Shown here piece after piece: positions 27,354 through 36,604 of a stretch of 38,688 nucleotides of DNA. The notes below the pieces were generated by a model. The model was not told the DNA's origin. It made no database searches and worked only from the letters and a program-made list of their open reading frames with translations. The stretch is from Halobacteriovorax sp. GTDB taxonomy: Bacteria; Bdellovibrionota; Bacteriovoracia; Bacteriovoracales; Bacteriovoracaceae. The DNA is taken from contig JAIBDQ010000009.1 in the NCBI GenBank assembly GCA_024686135.1, forward strand, positions 1-38,688, read 5' to 3'. The first letter of the stretch is position 1; every line of letters starts with the position of its first letter. Position numbers and translations under genes: made by a program.

Positions 27354-29378
27354 ATGAATAGAAACAAATTTCAAAAACTCATAGTCATAATCCTCGGAAT
27401 ATATCCGATTTTGGTATTCTCATGCCCTCAAGGTGTAGATGAGTTTGGAAAATTAGTAGAAAGAGAAATCGACAATAACTTGGAGGCGCAGGTCGATGCT
27501 GTTACGTCGACTCAGATAGGAGTTAATAATGAGGCCAAGATGGGCGTGGCCACTGCTGGCTCACAAGATTCTAGAGTAGCTGTCTTCGATGTTGATTCAG
27601 TAGACGAGATTCATGCCGTAGAGAGAGAGATAAATGCTGCAGCAACGGCTAATACAGGTGACACAAAGTTATTTAAGCGAGATGTTGACTCTCTTGATGA
27701 ATTAGAAAGACTAGAAAAATCTGAAAGAAAATTTTTAAGGTACAAAAGAGAAATTAAAACTTCAGACGAAGTTGTGGCCGAAGTTACCAGAAAAAAAATA
27801 CCAGTTGATAGTGCAGAGTACAGATCGCAGATCAGGTCTCAGCCTTCAGTTGAGAGATTTAAATCAAAATATGCTCAGAGCCAATTGGAATTTGAAAATA
27901 GGAGGTTTATCAGTGAAATTGGTAAAAACCCTCCTGGTAAAAAGTCCGTTTACTTTGACGTTGAGAACTCAGTGCTCAAAGACTTAAATGACAATATTTT
28001 CGAATCTAAAGATTTAGGAGATGCGGCAGGAAACCTTTTTAATGATATTTTATATAGGAAAATCAAGTCCGACCCTAAATTGGCATCGAGTCTTGATGGA
28101 AAGTACCGCGACTTTAAGTCCCTGAGATTTAGGTTTCTTTTAAATGAAGGCGAAGATGCAACTCAGCTAAATAATGCTCTTAAGAAAGTTTACGGTGAAG
28201 CCGCTGCAGAGTTTGAAGTAAAGCTTTCATCTACAGGTCTAAAGGATCTTTGGGCATCTAAATCTGGACAAGTAGGTAACCCAAGAAAATGGTTTTTAGC
28301 AGGAACTGGTTCTGATCCTCTTGAAGCCAATATGGCAGCAAGACAAGCAAGAGGTATGCTAGAGGAGATGGGGACTTCAAACCGACTTGTAGAATATGGA
28401 ACAAGAGTTGAGAGCTTGTCAAAAGATATAAAAGACCTAGAAAAAATTCGAAAGCTTCTATCTCGAATGCCTGAACTTAAAAAATATGGAGTGATGGTTG
28501 ATTCTGGAAATGGAAAAATGATTTTATCAAAAGATATGATTGGCATTTTAAGAAAAACAAAGAGAGGAGACTTCTCCAACATAAATGATTATCGCAAGGC
28601 CGTTAGAAAACAAATCAAAGGTCTTTTCGGAGTAAAGTTAGATAAGGTAGCCATTGATGGGATGACAAAATACTTTGAAGGAGTAGATGCTTTAAGTCCT
28701 CCGTTATTTATAAGAAGTAGGAATGGAATCGACTTGAGTACGGCAGATAGTGGTCTCGTCTCGGTAGACTTTACCGGAGTAGGGGTGGATAACGCCTATG
28801 AGGCTATGAATGGTTTACTGAAAGCTTCTCCTGAAGGAGCGACTAATCAGAAGTTAGTTCAAAGCGCTTTAAAGAGTATTGATGAACATGTAGAAAACGT
28901 TACCGAATCTATGAATAATTCAAAACGAGCTTTTAATGATGGCACTCAACATGTTTCGGGTGCTGAAAAACCAGCAGTCTTTTCAGGGGATGATGGAATG
29001 TATTTTCCTGATAAACCCTGGACCAGGAGTGAAAAGCAAAAACTGGTTGATAAGCTTGGGAGCGAAGATCCATCTAAGTACCGGGTCACTTTCGTAGAAA
29101 CAAAATATAAGAATGGAAATACTATACCTGCGGACTTAAGGTCCGAGTATATTGTTAAGGCAGAGAAAGTTGAAAAGGCCATTCGTAAAGCTGTTACTGG
29201 TGTAGGAGAGGGGCAAATATCTCCAGAAAGGGCCCGCGAAATGATGATCGCCATTGAATATAGGCCTTCCAAAGCTGGAAAGTCAGATTGGGATATCTTG
29301 TTCGGAGGTAAAATTAATCACCACGAGCAAACAATTCTTAGAAGATCTCTCGAAGCAATTATAGAAGCGGAACATTAA
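27354..29378 (+). CDS. 674-residue exported protein of unknown family
   Basis: Signal sequence at residues 5-23 (KFQKLIVIILGIYPILVFS) followed by Cys24, the only cysteine in the protein. V-F-S-C is a relaxed lipobox, so a lipoprotein is likely. Residues 65-150 contain a duplicated acidic unit (DVDSVDEIHAVEREI and DVDSLDELERLEKSER) and a third weaker copy (REIKTSDEVVAEV). The rest is charged and mostly helical, with a few well-formed loops (WFLAGTGSDPLEANMAARQA; VSVDFTGVGVDNAYEAMNGL) and a C-terminal block around FGGKINHHEQ. No known domain was recognised. The only in-frame start after the upstream stop (27342-27344) is this ATG. A FliA-like promoter lies directly upstream. The stop interlocks with that of the small converging gene (TTAA, 4-nt overlap). 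Confidence 0.75.
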   Translation: MNRNKFQKLIVIILGIYPILVFSCPQGVDEFGKLVEREIDNNLEAQVDAVTSTQIGVNNEAKMGVATAGSQDSRVAVFDVDSVDEIHAVEREINAAATANTGDTKLFKRDVDSLDELERLEKSERKFLRYKREIKTSDEVVAEVTRKKIPVDSAEYRSQIRSQPSVERFKSKYAQSQLEFENRRFISEIGKNPPGKKSVYFDVENSVLKDLNDNIFESKDLGDAAGNLFNDILYRKIKSDPKLASSLDGKYRDFKSLRFRFLLNEGEDATQLNNALKKVYGEAAAEFEVKLSSTGLKDLWASKSGQVGNPRKWFLAGTGSDPLEANMAARQARGMLEEMGTSNRLVEYGTRVESLSKDIKDLEKIRKLLSRMPELKKYGVMVDSGNGKMILSKDMIGILRKTKRGDFSNINDYRKAVRKQIKGLFGVKLDKVAIDGMTKYFEGVDALSPPLFIRSRNGIDLSTADSGLVSVDFTGVGVDNAYEAMNGLLKASPEGATNQKLVQSALKSIDEHVENVTESMNNSKRAFNDGTQHVSGAEKPAVFSGDDGMYFPDKPWTRSEKQKLVDKLGSEDPSKYRVTFVETKYKNGNTIPADLRSEYIVKAEKVEKAIRKAVTGVGEGQISPERAREMMIAIEYRPSKAGKSDWDILFGGKINHHEQTILRRSLEAIIEAEH

Positions 29379-29720: not shown

Positions 29721-30641
29721 ATGAATGAATTTGATAATATGATAAAAATTGGTGAGTTAGCAGATAAAAAAATAACCGAGCAAATTGTATCGGAGATGCT
29801 CAGAAGAAATATTCACCTTGAAAAAGTTTATGATTCGCAAAATCAGATGTTTGTCTTGTATGCCCGAGACGAAGAGTCGGCGACTATTGCGTTTGATTAT
29901 TATAGAGTAAAGGTTGGTTTTGCTCCTCCCCCTAAACCTATGCCCAAAGAATGGGAAAGTATTAAGAATGCCCCTCTTGGAAAAGTGACCATTGTCTTCT
30001 TGGCCATTAGCATCTTTGTTTATTTAAGTCGCCTTTTTATGGGTGATACTTTATTTGAACTCTTCTTTATGTCCAATCATCAAACTGGGGGACTATCCGA
30101 GATAAAAAATGGAGAATTTTGGAGAATCTTTACGCCTGTATTTCTCCACTTCAATCTTCTTCATATTTTATTTAACGGAATGTGGATGAAAGATCTTGGA
30201 AGTTTGATTGAGCATCATAAAGGAAAAATATTTTATATCACCTTAATCTTAATTTCAGGACTTCTCTCAAACATAGGGCAGTATTATGTTAAGGGACCTT
30301 TCTTCGGGGGACTTTCAGGGATTGTTTATGCTTTACTTGGCTTTGTTTGGATGAACAAAAAGTTTTTTCCTGAGGTTAGCTACTCCCTACCTAAAAATGA
30401 TGTCCTACTTATGATTGGTTGGTTTTTCTTTTGTTTTACTGGAGTACTTGGCCCAATTGCCAACACGGCCCACGGCATAGGTCTCGCCATAGGAATGATC
30501 TTTGGCGTTTTTAGTGGAAGTTTTAGTAATCAAAAATTCGATTCAATGAATATGCTTGGATACTGCCTCTTAGCGCTGATCTTCGGTGCTGGAACTTTTG
30601 CCTTTGAATTCTACGTTTTACCAATGATTACAGGCTCTTAA
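29721..30641 (+). CDS. Rhomboid intramembrane serine protease (GlpG-like)
   Basis: 306 residues. A soluble N-terminal domain (about 1-90, with an AxxAFxYYR helix-strand unit) precedes six or seven membrane segments (about 92-300). The rhomboid core is complete: FWRIFTPVFLHFNLLHILFN is the L1/TM2 motif with HxxxHxxxN, GGLSGIVYALLG contains the nucleophile Ser199 in G-x-S-G, and NTAHGIGLAIGMIFG contains the partner His251 in H-x-x-G-x-x-x-G. It cleaves membrane-anchored substrates within or next to the bilayer. It sits between two exported giants, but no substrate is evident. Start taken at 29721; leaderless transcription seems likely. Confidence 0.93.
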   Translation: MNEFDNMIKIGELADKKITEQIVSEMLRRNIHLEKVYDSQNQMFVLYARDEESATIAFDYYRVKVGFAPPPKPMPKEWESIKNAPLGKVTIVFLAISIFVYLSRLFMGDTLFELFFMSNHQTGGLSEIKNGEFWRIFTPVFLHFNLLHILFNGMWMKDLGSLIEHHKGKIFYITLILISGLLSNIGQYYVKGPFFGGLSGIVYALLGFVWMNKKFFPEVSYSLPKNDVLLMIGWFFFCFTGVLGPIANTAHGIGLAIGMIFGVFSGSFSNQKFDSMNMLGYCLLALIFGAGTFAFEFYVLPMITGS

Positions 30642-30684: not shown

Positions 30685-30733
30685 GTTATGGAGCTATAGA
30701 GAGGTAGTTATAAATTTTTATTCTCTGATTTTT

Positions 30734-33700
30734 TTGATGACCACGGTCTGGGGTCTCTTTCTTGGAAACAATCTTGTTGCCGGGGAGAGGTATACTCTAG
30801 AAGCTCAAAAACATGATGTTGCCTCAAATACTTCAACAGCAGTTTATTTTGATAATCGAGAACAAAGAATAGTTAAGAAAACATTTAAATGGTCAAAAGA
30901 ATTTGAAAAAAGGAGAAGAGATTCTAATAAAGAAAGTTTTAATTTTCCAGCAACTTCTTCTAACTTATCAAATGTCTCTCCTAAAACTCTTGATACGCAT
31001 AATGTAAAGGTTAGCTATGAGCACCATAGCCTCTATCACCCCTCCAATCGAAATAGAACTTCTAATGCAATAAAGAATGTTCTTGGTTCTAAAGCCTCGG
31101 CAAATAGTTTTGTCAGAAGAATGGAAACAAAAGTTGATCAATCAGAAAACCAATATGTCTTAGTACAAAAAGGCTCTAGTGGAAGCGGAAATAGGGCCAA
31201 AGATATCGCTGTTTATTATAATAAAGAACGGGGAGAGTTTGTAACTAAAACAATCAAAAGAAGAAGAAGCAATAGTCCGGCGTTTAATTTCCCTTCCTCT
31301 ATAGCAAGGCCAGCAATACTTGATCCATCCTCAAATGATAACTTTTTCAAGTTAGAGGAAAGTGATAGCTACTGGGCAAAAACACCCAATCAATTTGCTA
31401 AGGCCTTAGGGCGTATAAAAAGCGATTTTAATTCAGCAAAGGTTTCCTTTGATAAAGGTAAGTTTCAAAACCCCTTTGAGCAAATGAAAAAAAACAGAAG
31501 CGGGGATGTGCTAATAAAAGAACAGTATAAAGACGATAAACTATACCGCGTTTATTATAACTACGATCGAAATGAAATGATGGTTCAAGAGATGGACCTT
31601 GATCGTAAAGATAGAAGTAAAGTAAAAAACCTTAGTGAAACCGTATATGATTTAACCACAGACTTTGGTTATCAAGGTGCAAGGAATGCATTGGTAAGTA
31701 GTAAGGTTATCGCTGAAGGAGAGTTAGACTCTTTTAGAGGCGCGCAAGTCACTGCCTGTCGGGACGTACTTGAAAGCTATGTCCTTCCTGATTTAACGGA
31801 CTTTGAGAATATCACGGACGTCCTTTGGGATCGTCATTTGCATCAGGCCGTAGCGAGTGAAGCTATAAAAGGTCCGAATAGAAGTATGTTTTTAGAGTTA
31901 AACCTCTTAGATAAACCTAGAAGAGTTAAGGTCTTCCTAGATGCTAAAGGACAAGTTGCTAGAGTTGAATGGGTTGGTATGACACCAGAGGAAGCAGAAA
32001 AAGAAGGCCTTAAACTGGAATTTAAAACTGATGAAGATGGACAGAGAAATTATTTAATATCTACAAATTACCCTGAAAAAGACTCGTGGGACCCTATCAT
32101 GGGAATTAATGCGGATAATATCCGTGTTGAAAAAGGAGTTCTAAAAGGAAACTTAGCTGTCTTTGTAAAAGGAAAGAAAAGCGGGGATTTTGAATATGAC
32201 GAGTTTGAGAAAAGCGTCTTTCCTTTTGAATTAGATGAACAGAGAAGGGGAATTGCAAAACTAGATAAACGTCAAAGGCTTGATGGTAGCGCAAAGAATT
32301 ACTACGATATTGATGCTCCCTACGAAGACGGCTCTGGCGGGATAAAGAATGGATTTTTCAAATTGTTTTTTTCTAAAGAAGGAAGAAGGGAATTTGTTAG
32401 AGACACTATTTATGAGAATGCAAATGAAACGCTTAGTGGACCGGACTATAATCACCTAATTAATAACCGTGAAATTTGGAAAATCTCAGACAGAATCTCG
32501 CATCAATTGGGTAAGAAAACTAATAATTATACTTCCTCGGTAACTGATATTACCGCAAAAGGTGCTGAACTGGCTTACGCCGCTTTTGGTGATGAAATCT
32601 TATTAAGAGTTATTAAAGATATGTTACCTGAAGAATCGGATGCGGCAATTAATAGTGTCGTATTAAACGTTACTGAAGCTTTTAAAGAATGCTTGGCCAG
32701 GGCAGGAAATAGCAGAAACAAAAAAGTAGCTGATCAATGTATGGAGATTTTCAAAACGGAAGCTCCTATTTATGTGGGAAAAGAGGTCTTACTATTAAAG
32801 CTAGGGCAAAATGATCTTGGTGATTTTGAAGACGATGCCAATAAAGTCTATATGGGCTGTATAAAAGAAAACTATAGACCAGCTGCAAGTGAACAAGATT
32901 CGACTAACAAGATTAAAGGTTGTTTATATCAAGCCTTTTTAGAAACGATTGATAAGGCCATGGGACCAACTTTAGATAAAGAGGTCGGCAAAATTGTCAA
33001 AGATAAAGGTTATAATTTTAAATTATCTGCCTCGGAAAAAGATGGTCTCTTAAAAGGTATGAAGTCTTGTCTGAATTCTAAGAAACTTCAGTCTGATGGA
33101 CTATTTGGCACAAAATATAACTTTCAAAAGTTAGAGAATATGGAGCCTGCTGACTTTGAACAAAACCTAATGAGTTGTGTAACTAATATTAAGGTCGGTA
33201 CAGGTCGTATTGTTGTAGGGAAGATTCTAGGGATTGAGCTTGCTAAGCAAGACCTGACTCCTGATGTTAAGGTAGCAGCTAAAGAAAAAGCTATGACTCG
33301 AGGTTATGAGGCTTGTGTTAAAAAGCAAGAAGAGATCGTTCAAGAGTTTGTTTCTCAGTTAAGGCCAGTGACTAAAAAAGCACCTATACCAGGAAAACCG
33401 ATTAAGCCTCAAGCAAAGTCTGAAAAGATGGTTAAAATTCCGGCCATTGAACCTGGTGAATGTGCAAATCTAGTGTTGAATAGGACTCTATCCATAGTGG
33501 TTCCAGAAATGGTGAAAAAGGCCATTGGAGCTGAATTTTATAATAAACTTTCTAAAAACCAAGAAACGATGCCTCAATTTTTAATTTGCTTTGATAGAGA
33601 AGAAAAGCGTCTCACTGATGAGCTTCCCTATATTCTAAAGACTGAAGCTGGTCTAGATGCGAAGACGAAAGCTAAAAATGCTGAGGCTAGAGCATCAAGA

Positions 33701-36604
33701 GCGGATAAAGCTCACGCAAATTGTTTAAAACAGGCCTTAACTTGGGCCAGTTTTCACGCCGTAGGACAAATTGTTGAAGACACACTTAAGAAAGATCCAG
33801 AACTATCAAAACTAATTACGCTTTCGGATAAAGATAAGACTGTAATGGGGAAGATAATTCAGGCCTGCTTTGCTAAAGAGCTGGAGGCCTATGAAACGGT
33901 CTCTTCTATGACTGAAGCACTAGACCCACTTAAAGAGAAATGTGGTGTTGAGCTTTTACAGGACTCTGATGTTCAACAGATAATTTTCAAGCCGGTAATA
34001 GAAGGCTCTCTTAAAGATGCGAACATTAAAGAAAAAGATCTCAAAGGCCTAAGCGACTCCATTCTCGAAGGTATGAATAAAGAGATGAAGACAGCTAAAA
34101 CAATCGATGAAGTGATTGCAGCAGCAAAATCATATAAAGGTAAAGCTGCCATACAAGTTATCGACTTTAGTATAAAAGATAAAATCAATGATCTAGTTGA
34201 AATTGAAAATCCTGACTTAAAACTAAGTGAAGTTTCGAGGCTAAATAAGTTAGCTCAAGATAAGTTATTAAGTAGCGAAGGGCTAGACTTTAAAACCAGA
34301 ATCCTTGAAGCCGCAAAAGATAGCGACCCAAAAGTACTTGATGCGGTTCTAGATGATTTTAAAGTCGAAGCGACGAAAACCATTGGTCCCGAAGTTGTAG
34401 AATTGACAGGAGAAAAACTTTTAAAAGATGGACTCCTCTCTAATGAAAATGAAGTCAAAGAAATGAGAAGGGTTGCAGAGAAGAAATTAAAAGAATGTTT
34501 AGAGAATAGACCGGTAGGGGTTAAAACAGATGCTCATATTGACGAATGTGTTATTAAATTAAAATCATCTTCAACAGAATGGGTTATCAATAAATCATTG
34601 ATGAAGAATTTAACTGATGAAGAGAACTCAAGAATTTTCTCTAAAGAGGATCAAGAAAGAATCATAGGTGAAGTCTTAGACGATGCTGCTAAAAAAGAAA
34701 TTGAAAGGATAAGTAGGATAAAAGATAAGAAAGAAGCTGAATTAGCACTTAATAAATTAACCATATCGATAAAATCAAAAGCAGCAGGGGAAATAGTTAA
34801 GGGAGTCATTCCTTATACGCTAGACCAAGTCCTAACTATTAGTAAGCGTGCCAGTGAGCAAATGGTAGAGAGAACCAAAGAATTTAAAGCAAGTTTAAAG
34901 AAAGAGCTTATTGGAGACTTTGATATTTGTATTGAAAAATATAAAAAAGGTTCTATCGCCGCCCTTAATGGTAATTGGTCGAACGAAAAATATAATCCTG
35001 ATGAGGAGTTCGATGCTTGTGCTAATCGCTTAAGGCTTTCTTCTATGGAAAAGATCATGCCATATAAATTTAAAGAAGTATTAAGACTTATTAATAAAAA
35101 TGATATGGAAAATGACTCTGTCATTAAGTCTAGCCAGCTCTACTTTGATAAATGTGCAGATCAAGTGGATATCTACTCTGATTCCAAAGACTTTAAATAC
35201 CAAATGGACTCGTGCTCGGTGATGACTGTCTTTAAATTTACAAAAAATACAATTCAGTATACTCGCGACTTAGGCGATGGATTATTCGTTCAAAATCCAA
35301 AGACTATTGAAGAGTGGGATTCATGTATCTCTAGAATGAGAGGAGATGTGATTGAAAAACTTGCCCCCTATAATAAGGACAAGACGTTAGAAGTTATAAA
35401 AGATGATTTCACTTTCATATCTGAGGCTTTTAAGAAAAATGCCAATATTAAAGACGAAGAATATAAGCCGGTCACAATGGAATGGGTTGTTGATAGAATC
35501 AAGCGATGTGCTCTTGAGTCTCTTGCTCCAAACCTCATTCAAGAATATAAAATGAAAGTGATTACGGATCCGAAGCTAAAACTTTCGGCCAGGGAACAAG
35601 CAGTAACTAGTTCATTCCTAGACTCACTAAGTAATATCTTAAGTCTTAAGTATGATGGGAAACCTGTTAACTTTCAGGTTGATAAATTTGTTAAAGAACT
35701 TAACACTGAATTAGATAATTTACCTAAGAGCGACAAAGAAAACAAGCCCGATTACCTAACCGTGATCGAGGAATTTCAGCCTCTAATTTACGACTATGTA
35801 AAAGATTTAGTTGGTTACGATCAAAGGGGTTTTCTAGAGGGCATCAAAGACTTCGAAAAAAGAGTAAAAAGGGCCGTAGAGCTCAATAAAGGTAAGCTAT
35901 CAATTCCAGAGCTTAAAGATATCCTTGTTGATTCAAAGTTGGGCGATGTCCTCCTAAAGTCTTTAGTCTCTAAAATTATCAAAGATAAAGCAGGGGAGGC
36001 TCTTAAGAAACAAGGTGTCTCCGCAGGTTCTGTGGTCAATGAACTTTCCTCGAAAGAAATGCTAGATAGAATCTTTAGAGGTAAGAAAGGACAGGAGACG
36101 ATTACACATGTGAAGCGGAAGCTAAAAGGCCTTGGGCTACAAGAGATCTTCCAACTTCTGAATACGAAAAAAGCTAGTAATAAAAAGAAACTCGATGTTT
36201 TGATGAAGGATATCAATGGTAAAGTCATCGATACACTCTCTGAAGATACAATGAATGGAGGTTTCGTAGAAACCCTATTTGGACCGATTGTTCAAAAGTC
36301 ATTAACAGAGAAAAGAGATGGCATTGAATCAGGATTCTCTGCAATTTTCAAAGTGCCTGCCGCTGGACTTATGGGTTACAACCGTCATGAGTTTCATTGG
36401 GGAACTAGATGGGATAATAGAAGTTATTCTCTAAGAAATACACCTTCGGGTAAGAAGGCCGTGAGGAATTTTAGTTCTTATATCTTAAAACCTCTTATGA
36501 AAGATGGTATGTCGGACTCCGATTTAGAGAAGAAGATCGAAAAACATATTGAACCTCAAATCAAAGAAGCCCTTGGTGAAAACGGCGTTGGATTGTGGGA
36601 ATAG
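30734..36604 (+). CDS. 1956-residue secreted Cys-pair repeat protein, unknown family
   Basis: No known domain was recognised. Residues about 30-290 contain three copies of a beta unit (AVYFDNREQRIVKKTFK near 36, AVYYNKERGEFVTKTIK near 158, RVYYNYDRNEMMVQEMD near 270), the first two followed by an FNFP motif. From 653 to 1592 the protein is helical and holds twenty cysteines in ten successive pairs; most adjacent pairs are separated by 37-49 residues. Such regular pairs imply disulfides and export. The C-terminal 300 residues lack cysteine and end with a distinct GYNRHEFHWGTRWDNRSYS block. The start is uncertain: TTG 30734 and ATG 30737 have no ribosome site, while AGAGAGGT points to an in-frame AUA at 30710 that would restore a longer hydrophobic leader (NFYSLIFLMTTVWGLFL). 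A FliA-like promoter is upstream. Confidence 0.75.
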   Translation: MMTTVWGLFLGNNLVAGERYTLEAQKHDVASNTSTAVYFDNREQRIVKKTFKWSKEFEKRRRDSNKESFNFPATSSNLSNVSPKTLDTHNVKVSYEHHSLYHPSNRNRTSNAIKNVLGSKASANSFVRRMETKVDQSENQYVLVQKGSSGSGNRAKDIAVYYNKERGEFVTKTIKRRRSNSPAFNFPSSIARPAILDPSSNDNFFKLEESDSYWAKTPNQFAKALGRIKSDFNSAKVSFDKGKFQNPFEQMKKNRSGDVLIKEQYKDDKLYRVYYNYDRNEMMVQEMDLDRKDRSKVKNLSETVYDLTTDFGYQGARNALVSSKVIAEGELDSFRGAQVTACRDVLESYVLPDLTDFENITDVLWDRHLHQAVASEAIKGPNRSMFLELNLLDKPRRVKVFLDAKGQVARVEWVGMTPEEAEKEGLKLEFKTDEDGQRNYLISTNYPEKDSWDPIMGINADNIRVEKGVLKGNLAVFVKGKKSGDFEYDEFEKSVFPFELDEQRRGIAKLDKRQRLDGSAKNYYDIDAPYEDGSGGIKNGFFKLFFSKEGRREFVRDTIYENANETLSGPDYNHLINNREIWKISDRISHQLGKKTNNYTSSVTDITAKGAELAYAAFGDEILLRVIKDMLPEESDAAINSVVLNVTEAFKECLARAGNSRNKKVADQCMEIFKTEAPIYVGKEVLLLKLGQNDLGDFEDDANKVYMGCIKENYRPAASEQDSTNKIKGCLYQAFLETIDKAMGPTLDKEVGKIVKDKGYNFKLSASEKDGLLKGMKSCLNSKKLQSDGLFGTKYNFQKLENMEPADFEQNLMSCVTNIKVGTGRIVVGKILGIELAKQDLTPDVKVAAKEKAMTRGYEACVKKQEEIVQEFVSQLRPVTKKAPIPGKPIKPQAKSEKMVKIPAIEPGECANLVLNRTLSIVVPEMVKKAIGAEFYNKLSKNQETMPQFLICFDREEKRLTDELPYILKTEAGLDAKTKAKNAEARASRADKAHANCLKQALTWASFHAVGQIVEDTLKKDPELSKLITLSDKDKTVMGKIIQACFAKELEAYETVSSMTEALDPLKEKCGVELLQDSDVQQIIFKPVIEGSLKDANIKEKDLKGLSDSILEGMNKEMKTAKTIDEVIAAAKSYKGKAAIQVIDFSIKDKINDLVEIENPDLKLSEVSRLNKLAQDKLLSSEGLDFKTRILEAAKDSDPKVLDAVLDDFKVEATKTIGPEVVELTGEKLLKDGLLSNENEVKEMRRVAEKKLKECLENRPVGVKTDAHIDECVIKLKSSSTEWVINKSLMKNLTDEENSRIFSKEDQERIIGEVLDDAAKKEIERISRIKDKKEAELALNKLTISIKSKAAGEIVKGVIPYTLDQVLTISKRASEQMVERTKEFKASLKKELIGDFDICIEKYKKGSIAALNGNWSNEKYNPDEEFDACANRLRLSSMEKIMPYKFKEVLRLINKNDMENDSVIKSSQLYFDKCADQVDIYSDSKDFKYQMDSCSVMTVFKFTKNTIQYTRDLGDGLFVQNPKTIEEWDSCISRMRGDVIEKLAPYNKDKTLEVIKDDFTFISEAFKKNANIKDEEYKPVTMEWVVDRIKRCALESLAPNLIQEYKMKVITDPKLKLSAREQAVTSSFLDSLSNILSLKYDGKPVNFQVDKFVKELNTELDNLPKSDKENKPDYLTVIEEFQPLIYDYVKDLVGYDQRGFLEGIKDFEKRVKRAVELNKGKLSIPELKDILVDSKLGDVLLKSLVSKIIKDKAGEALKKQGVSAGSVVNELSSKEMLDRIFRGKKGQETITHVKRKLKGLGLQEIFQLLNTKKASNKKKLDVLMKDINGKVIDTLSEDTMNGGFVETLFGPIVQKSLTEKRDGIESGFSAIFKVPAAGLMGYNRHEFHWGTRWDNRSYSLRNTPSGKKAVRNFSSYILKPLMKDGMSDSDLEKKIEKHIEPQIKEALGENGVGLWE

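Follow-up and report, generated by a model that had tools for sequence, protein, structure and literature searches.

A putative giant exported alpha-solenoid with tandem cysteine pairs in Halobacteriovorax

Described disulfide-bridged helical repeats and the window protein

Tandem helical repeats closed by disulfides have been described in exported proteins of Helicobacter, where HcpB and HcpC consist of tandem 36-aa disulfide-bridged alpha/alpha repeats, with crystal structures cited for both (PMC2581425). The second repeat region of CagY, a protein of the Cag type IV secretion system in Helicobacter, is a long alpha-helical array with regular cysteines for which disulfides have been proposed, and this region contracts and expands naturally (PMC2581425). 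We analyzed a stretch of 38,688 nucleotides from Halobacteriovorax sp., a marine relative of predatory bacteria (contig JAIBDQ010000009.1, forward strand; hereafter the window), in which the open reading frame at 30734-36604 (+) encodes P0001, a giant protein of 1956 residues and 220 kDa. The original prediction had suggested that a disulfide-bonded rod or solenoid of this kind would be a new structural class. This part of the claim was not upheld, since HcpB/HcpC already provide disulfide-bridged helical repeats and CagY has been proposed to contain them (PMC2581425); the window protein would work like these repeats, and its structural class is therefore not new.

Like the Sel1-like repeats of HcpB/HcpC, the window protein would be an exported bacterial array of tandem alpha/alpha repeats with disulfides, although here the disulfides are proposed only. 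In contrast to the 36-residue repeat given for HcpB/HcpC, its module spans 60-65 residues, and in its family 10-12 pairs, with partners 10-66 residues apart, are carried by a protein of ~1950 aa. The Sel1 repeat model PF08238 matched neither the window protein nor any of 10 homologues (Pfam, E<=0.01). With CagY the family has in common a giant helical cysteine array whose module number varies naturally (12, 10 or 9 pairs, with spacing intact). However, the CagY A motif measures 38-39 aa and CagY is a VirB10 homologue (PMC2581425), whereas neither a CagY repeat nor a VirB10-like domain was matched in the window family by Pfam or NCBIfam.

The giant protein family itself appears to be new. Neither the window protein nor any of the 10 homologues had a Pfam family at E<=0.01, an NCBIfam scan of the giant protein and its homologues gave nothing above cut-off, and no description of a giant cysteine-array family was found in the literature searched, in agreement with the original prediction that the pattern belongs to no described family. 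DUF445 (PF04286) matched one sister-family member at E=4e-4 over 200 residues, but with 20.8 bits against a cut-off of 33.8; since this sub-cut-off score occurred in one member only and DUF445 had no match in the window's own genome, membership was dropped. The DUF445 proteins that do score above cut-off in these genomes are small (~235-255 aa). Interferon gamma, the best profile match against PDB sequences (E=8e-4, 90 residues), was taken as chance helical similarity, and the profile of the sister family g14 gave nothing significant against PDB sequences.

The gene and its cysteine array

The reading frame lies on the + strand as originally called, and a dN of 0.08 with saturated dS, measured against an 88%-identical relative, marks it as a real coding sequence. 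Its first canonical start, TTG at 30734, has its nearest good Shine-Dalgarno sequence 29 nt away. The position of this codon, like that of the ATG at 30737, is not conserved, and a third species (G002) has neither there. Just upstream, the 21-nt stretch AGCTATAGAGAGGTAGTTATA, which ends in ATA, is identical in three species with divergent flanks and places a Shine-Dalgarno sequence 5 nt ahead of the ATA at 30710; no in-frame ATG, GTG or TTG occurs upstream of this codon. Given this identity and the shifting canonical starts, the true start of the gene is probably the rare ATA codon at 30710, which would provide a proper signal peptide ending near LVA/GERY. A hydropathy scan placed the best window of the protein at residue 6 and found no second membrane-like window, and the signal peptide has no lipobox. 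With a signal peptide and no membrane anchor, the periplasm is the default location of the protein. Placement on a predator's surface, as in the original prediction, is not supported by these features.

P0001 contains 21 cysteines, namely, Cys342 and 20 array cysteines (Table 1). Each of the 20 positions listed in the original prediction proved exact, as did the loops of 16 to 61 residues and the pair-to-pair distances of 40, 49, 46, 42, 48, 185, 127, 45 and 37. Searches of whole genomes within the same family yielded 18 orthologues, of which two are truncated at contig ends; most are at ~20-30% identity. All 20 array cysteines are invariant among them, versus 22 of 1943 other residues (Fisher p=4e-35), and under random cysteine placement the probability that seven of the nine intervals between pairs would be equally uniform is ~2e-5. 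The most widely matched part of the orthologue profile is the C-terminal cap (model 1725-1905). Across subfamilies the N-terminal part differs, and the array and cap are held in common.

The mature protein carries an odd number of cysteines in nearly all subfamilies (loci L021, L019, L024, L058, L071 and L075), with counts of 21, 17, 25, 21, 19, 23 and 29 in the main ones and the 16 of G021p as the exception. An odd number suggests that one cysteine is free or bonded to another molecule.

Table 1. Features of the giant gene and its upstream neighbour in the window
Feature	Coordinates	Strand	Basis or remark
GlpG-like rhomboid protease gene	29721..30641	+	PF01694 E=2e-22; 69 nt before probable giant start
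Conserved stretch with ribosome-binding site and probable ATA start (30710-30712)	30690..30712	+	Three-species identity of AGCTATAGAGAGGTAGTTATA
Signal peptide, approximate, (x)NFYSLIFLMTTVWGLFLGNNLVA/GERY	30710..30781	+	N-terminus hydrophobic where orthologues are complete
Giant Cys-array protein P0001 (canonical ORF call)	30734..36604	+	ORF list, orthologues
Internally duplicated N-terminal domain, approximate limits	30782..31700	+	Cys-masked profile self-alignment E=9e-8
Cys342, single conserved Cys ahead of array	31757..31759	+	Invariant in 17/17 sequences reaching it
Cys pair 1 (653/669)	32690..32740	+	Invariant 18/18; both missing in paralogue family p
Cys pair 2 (709/730)	32858..32923	+	Invariant 18/18
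Cys pair 3 (779/815)	33068..33178	+	Invariant 18/18; both lost together in G021p, neighbours retained
Cys pair 4 (861/910)	33314..33463	+	Invariant 18/18
Cys pair 5 (952/997)	33587..33724	+	Invariant 18/18
Cys pair 6 (1045/1070)	33866..33943	+	Invariant 18/18
185-residue interval, lost a Cys pair	33944..34495	+	Sister family g14 pair 534/547 here
Cys pair 7 (1255/1272)	34496..34549	+	Invariant 18/18; both missing in p97
127-residue interval, lost a Cys pair	34550..34927	+	Sister family g14 pair 664/685 here
Cys pair 8 (1399/1429)	34928..35020	+	Invariant 18/18
Cys pair 9 (1474/1494)	35153..35215	+	Invariant 18/18
Cys pair 10 (1531/1592)	35324..35509	+	Invariant 18/18
Cys-free C-terminal cap, common to most subfamilies, approximate limits	36011..36583	+	Most widely matched profile part

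Repeat unit, lost pairs and predicted structure

With all cysteines masked, the orthologue profile aligned off-diagonal to itself at E=2e-11, and that of g14, a sister family of ~1177 aa with 12 cysteine pairs and one last cysteine, did so at E=1e-6. As controls, reversal of the profile and three local shuffles of its columns, in which the cysteine columns stayed in place, yielded nothing better than E=0.02, so that the internal repeat stands far above background. In the masked self-alignment, cysteines fell on cysteines of the same parity in 35 cases and of opposite parity in 2, while 50 more fell on stretches without cysteine; the corresponding ratio in g14 was 81:1, with slips mostly of 0 or 4 residues, as helices would give. 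This mapping defines the unit as an odd cysteine, a variable turn, an even cysteine and ~45 further residues. Where loops are short the period is ~60-65 residues, made up of the constant ~45 and the variable loop closed by the pair. The original prediction of a tandem module was thus correct as to the repeat but not as to its length, the proposed ~45 residues being the constant part. Its grouping of the cysteines into odd-even pairs is supported both by the blind parity mapping and by the loss of cysteines as such pairs.

The odd cysteines lie in a motif [FLY]xxC[LIMF], with hydrophobic residues in 92-96% at -3 and 92-93% at +1, and the even cysteines are followed by hydrophobic residues at +1, +4, +8 and +12. 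An amphipathic helix had been predicted to begin at the even cysteine: the four helices quoted were correct, the hydrophobic spacing at +4/+8/+12 agrees with them, and helices are also present in structure predictions. These were made with AlphaFold2 from three sequences, namely, the window protein and those of two related loci, and gave only helices, at low confidence, for residues 590-1110 (mean pLDDT 63) and 1035-1956 (mean pLDDT 54). In both low-confidence models the two cysteines of a pair sit in different helices, the even one in a helix that follows that of the odd one, with an inter-helix turn between them; for pairs 3, 4 and 10 this turn is long and partly ill-defined. Foldseek searches of both models against PDB gave no match at E<=0.001. 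Most of the weak, non-significant neighbours of the second model were of the HEAT/ARM type or designed helical repeats; a HEAT/ARM unit is shorter than the module here and has no conserved disulfide.

Comparison with g14 bears on the two long gaps of the array. The two proteins aligned at E=1e-30, with 20 g14 array cysteines mapping one to one, and the extra g14 pairs, 534/547 between pairs 6 and 7 and 664/685 between pairs 7 and 8, sit inside the 185- and 127-residue gaps, which indicates that both stretches have lost cysteines, as had been supposed. With cysteines masked the alignment still reached E=1e-17, but in a shifted module register, so that the one-to-one mapping leans on the cysteines themselves. 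Further losses also took both members of a pair: 779+815 in G021p, where the register is exact even with cysteines masked, 1255+1272 in p97, and 653+669 in family p, whose register is less certain. Furthermore, three g14 lineages (G065, G069 and G062) have 10 pairs and another (G341) has 9, with normal spacing across the junctions. As read from these sequences, whole modules are deleted in nature (12, 10 and 9 pairs).

Locus, proposed architecture and alternatives

The orthologues occupy a fixed locus comprising, in order, sufSDCB-rrf2, other genes, the GlpG-like rhomboid gene, the giant gene and argS. The rhomboid gene stands directly upstream of the giant gene in 14 of 15 readable orthologous loci; its product matches the GlpG model at E=2e-43, yet below the cut-off. 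Identity at the locus is ~85% for SufB, ~60% for ArgS and ~40% for the rhomboid, while the giant protein, at ~25%, diverges faster. A search for homologues in other Bdellovibrionota, as originally suggested, was productive: besides the 18 orthologues of the same family, six further genomes of the phylum, outside that family, match the g14 profile. An Rfam scan of the window gave no match.

We consider it likely that P0001 is an exported 220-kDa alpha-solenoid of disulfide-stapled hairpins, serving as a structural scaffold or tether outside the inner membrane; the bonds themselves, the rod shape, the location and the function are inferred. The signal peptide would be followed by a variable N-terminal domain and then by tandem antiparallel helical hairpins. 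In each module, helix A would carry [F/L/Y]-x-x-C-hydrophobic in its later half and lead, through a turn of variable length, into helix B with hydrophobic-x-x-C-hydrophobic. Oxidation of the odd and even cysteines of the module would form a disulfide that staples this turn, and the stapled hairpins would stack into a stiff rod whose loops are free to vary widely in length while the core stays tight; such stapling would keep the core packed despite long loops and a fast-changing sequence. A Cys-free cap would close the C-terminus, and the whole would work as a scaffold or tether in the oxidizing space outside the inner membrane, by default the periplasm. Genes for DsbB and DsbA homologues are present in the window's genome, one DsbA beside DsbB.

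The same solenoid could instead be bonded from each even cysteine to the next odd one, ~45 residues further along, so that the bond would close the hairpin at its base rather than at the variable turn. The even-to-odd spacing is indeed the constant one, and in g14 the last single cysteine follows ~42 residues past the final pair. Under such bonding, however, every odd-even loss (those in G021p, p97 and family p and in the window protein's own two gaps) would leave two orphan cysteines, and this pairing, disfavoured by the loss pattern in the sequences, is distinctly unlikely. It is highly improbable that the array cysteines serve as ligands for metal, haem or Fe-S clusters, as the nearby suf Fe-S operon might suggest: each module offers two cysteines 10-66 residues apart across variable loops, without CxxC or CxxCH, the protein is exported, and the suf genes lie on the other strand as part of general synteny. 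Metal binding was rejected because the motifs are lacking. The adjacent rhomboid, acting like a rhombosortase, might process the giant protein, as its place immediately upstream would allow; this seems very unlikely, given that the giant protein has no C-terminal hydrophobic segment or membrane anchor of the rhombosortase/GlyGly-CTERM kind, that the protease scores 39.2 bits against a rhombosortase cut-off of 84, and that G021 and the paralogue families have no rhomboid neighbour.

Stapled hairpins could also serve elsewhere than in the periplasm, and in a possible, if tentative, reading the protein is exported to the cell surface or into prey, where it would act as a tether or adhesive fibre whose fast-changing N-terminal domain contacts prey. 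The signal peptide, the much faster divergence than in ArgS or SufB, the N-terminal variation above a common array and cap, and the CagY precedent (PMC2581425) all fit this reading. Against it, Pfam and NCBIfam recognize no export or anchoring domain (no autotransporter barrel, translocator or other Pfam-recognized export domain in 10 homologues), the signal peptide is not of the lipobox type, all orthologues keep to a fixed chromosomal locus, and about half of the good-quality genomes of the family match no part of the profile. A bolder proposal, and a rather unlikely one, is that these giant disulfide-stapled alpha-solenoids constitute a superfamily not described before, which is of modular length, comprises five or more subfamilies and occurs almost exclusively in a single family of predatory Bdellovibrionota; they would form a load-bearing rod or tether where predator meets prey, and one conserved free cysteine would join the molecules.

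The family, named in no database searched, has the cysteine ladder as its sole strict constraint, and would offer a clear case in which disulfides substitute for sequence conservation in a solenoid. The natural series of 9, 10 and 12 modules lends itself to the study of how such rods lengthen and shorten. If located in the envelope of a Halobacteriovorax-type predator, it would be a very large unexplained envelope protein.

Several neighbouring genes were observed along with the family. Between rrf2 and the rhomboid gene, positions 27354-29378 (+) of the window encode a protein of 674 aa that has a signal peptide and is matched by no Pfam or NCBIfam model; a homologue occupies the same place in two same-genus genomes and in G094, and it is replaced or absent in most others. 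A g3 genome has a fatty-acid hydroxylase gene (PF04116) there (L079 4578-5393). The 1477-aa giant paralogue G021p (L069 6307-10737), in which two cysteine pairs are lost, adjoins a phage-type integrase gene. The window's own genome carries a paralogue of 1399 aa with 17 cysteines (G000:C110; L058 8723-12919, -), and 64 nt after it on the same strand lies a gene whose exported product has no Pfam match at E<=0.001 and reads like an enzyme of the endonuclease/exonuclease/phosphatase fold. A similar enzyme-like neighbour is found at L060 and perhaps at L061.
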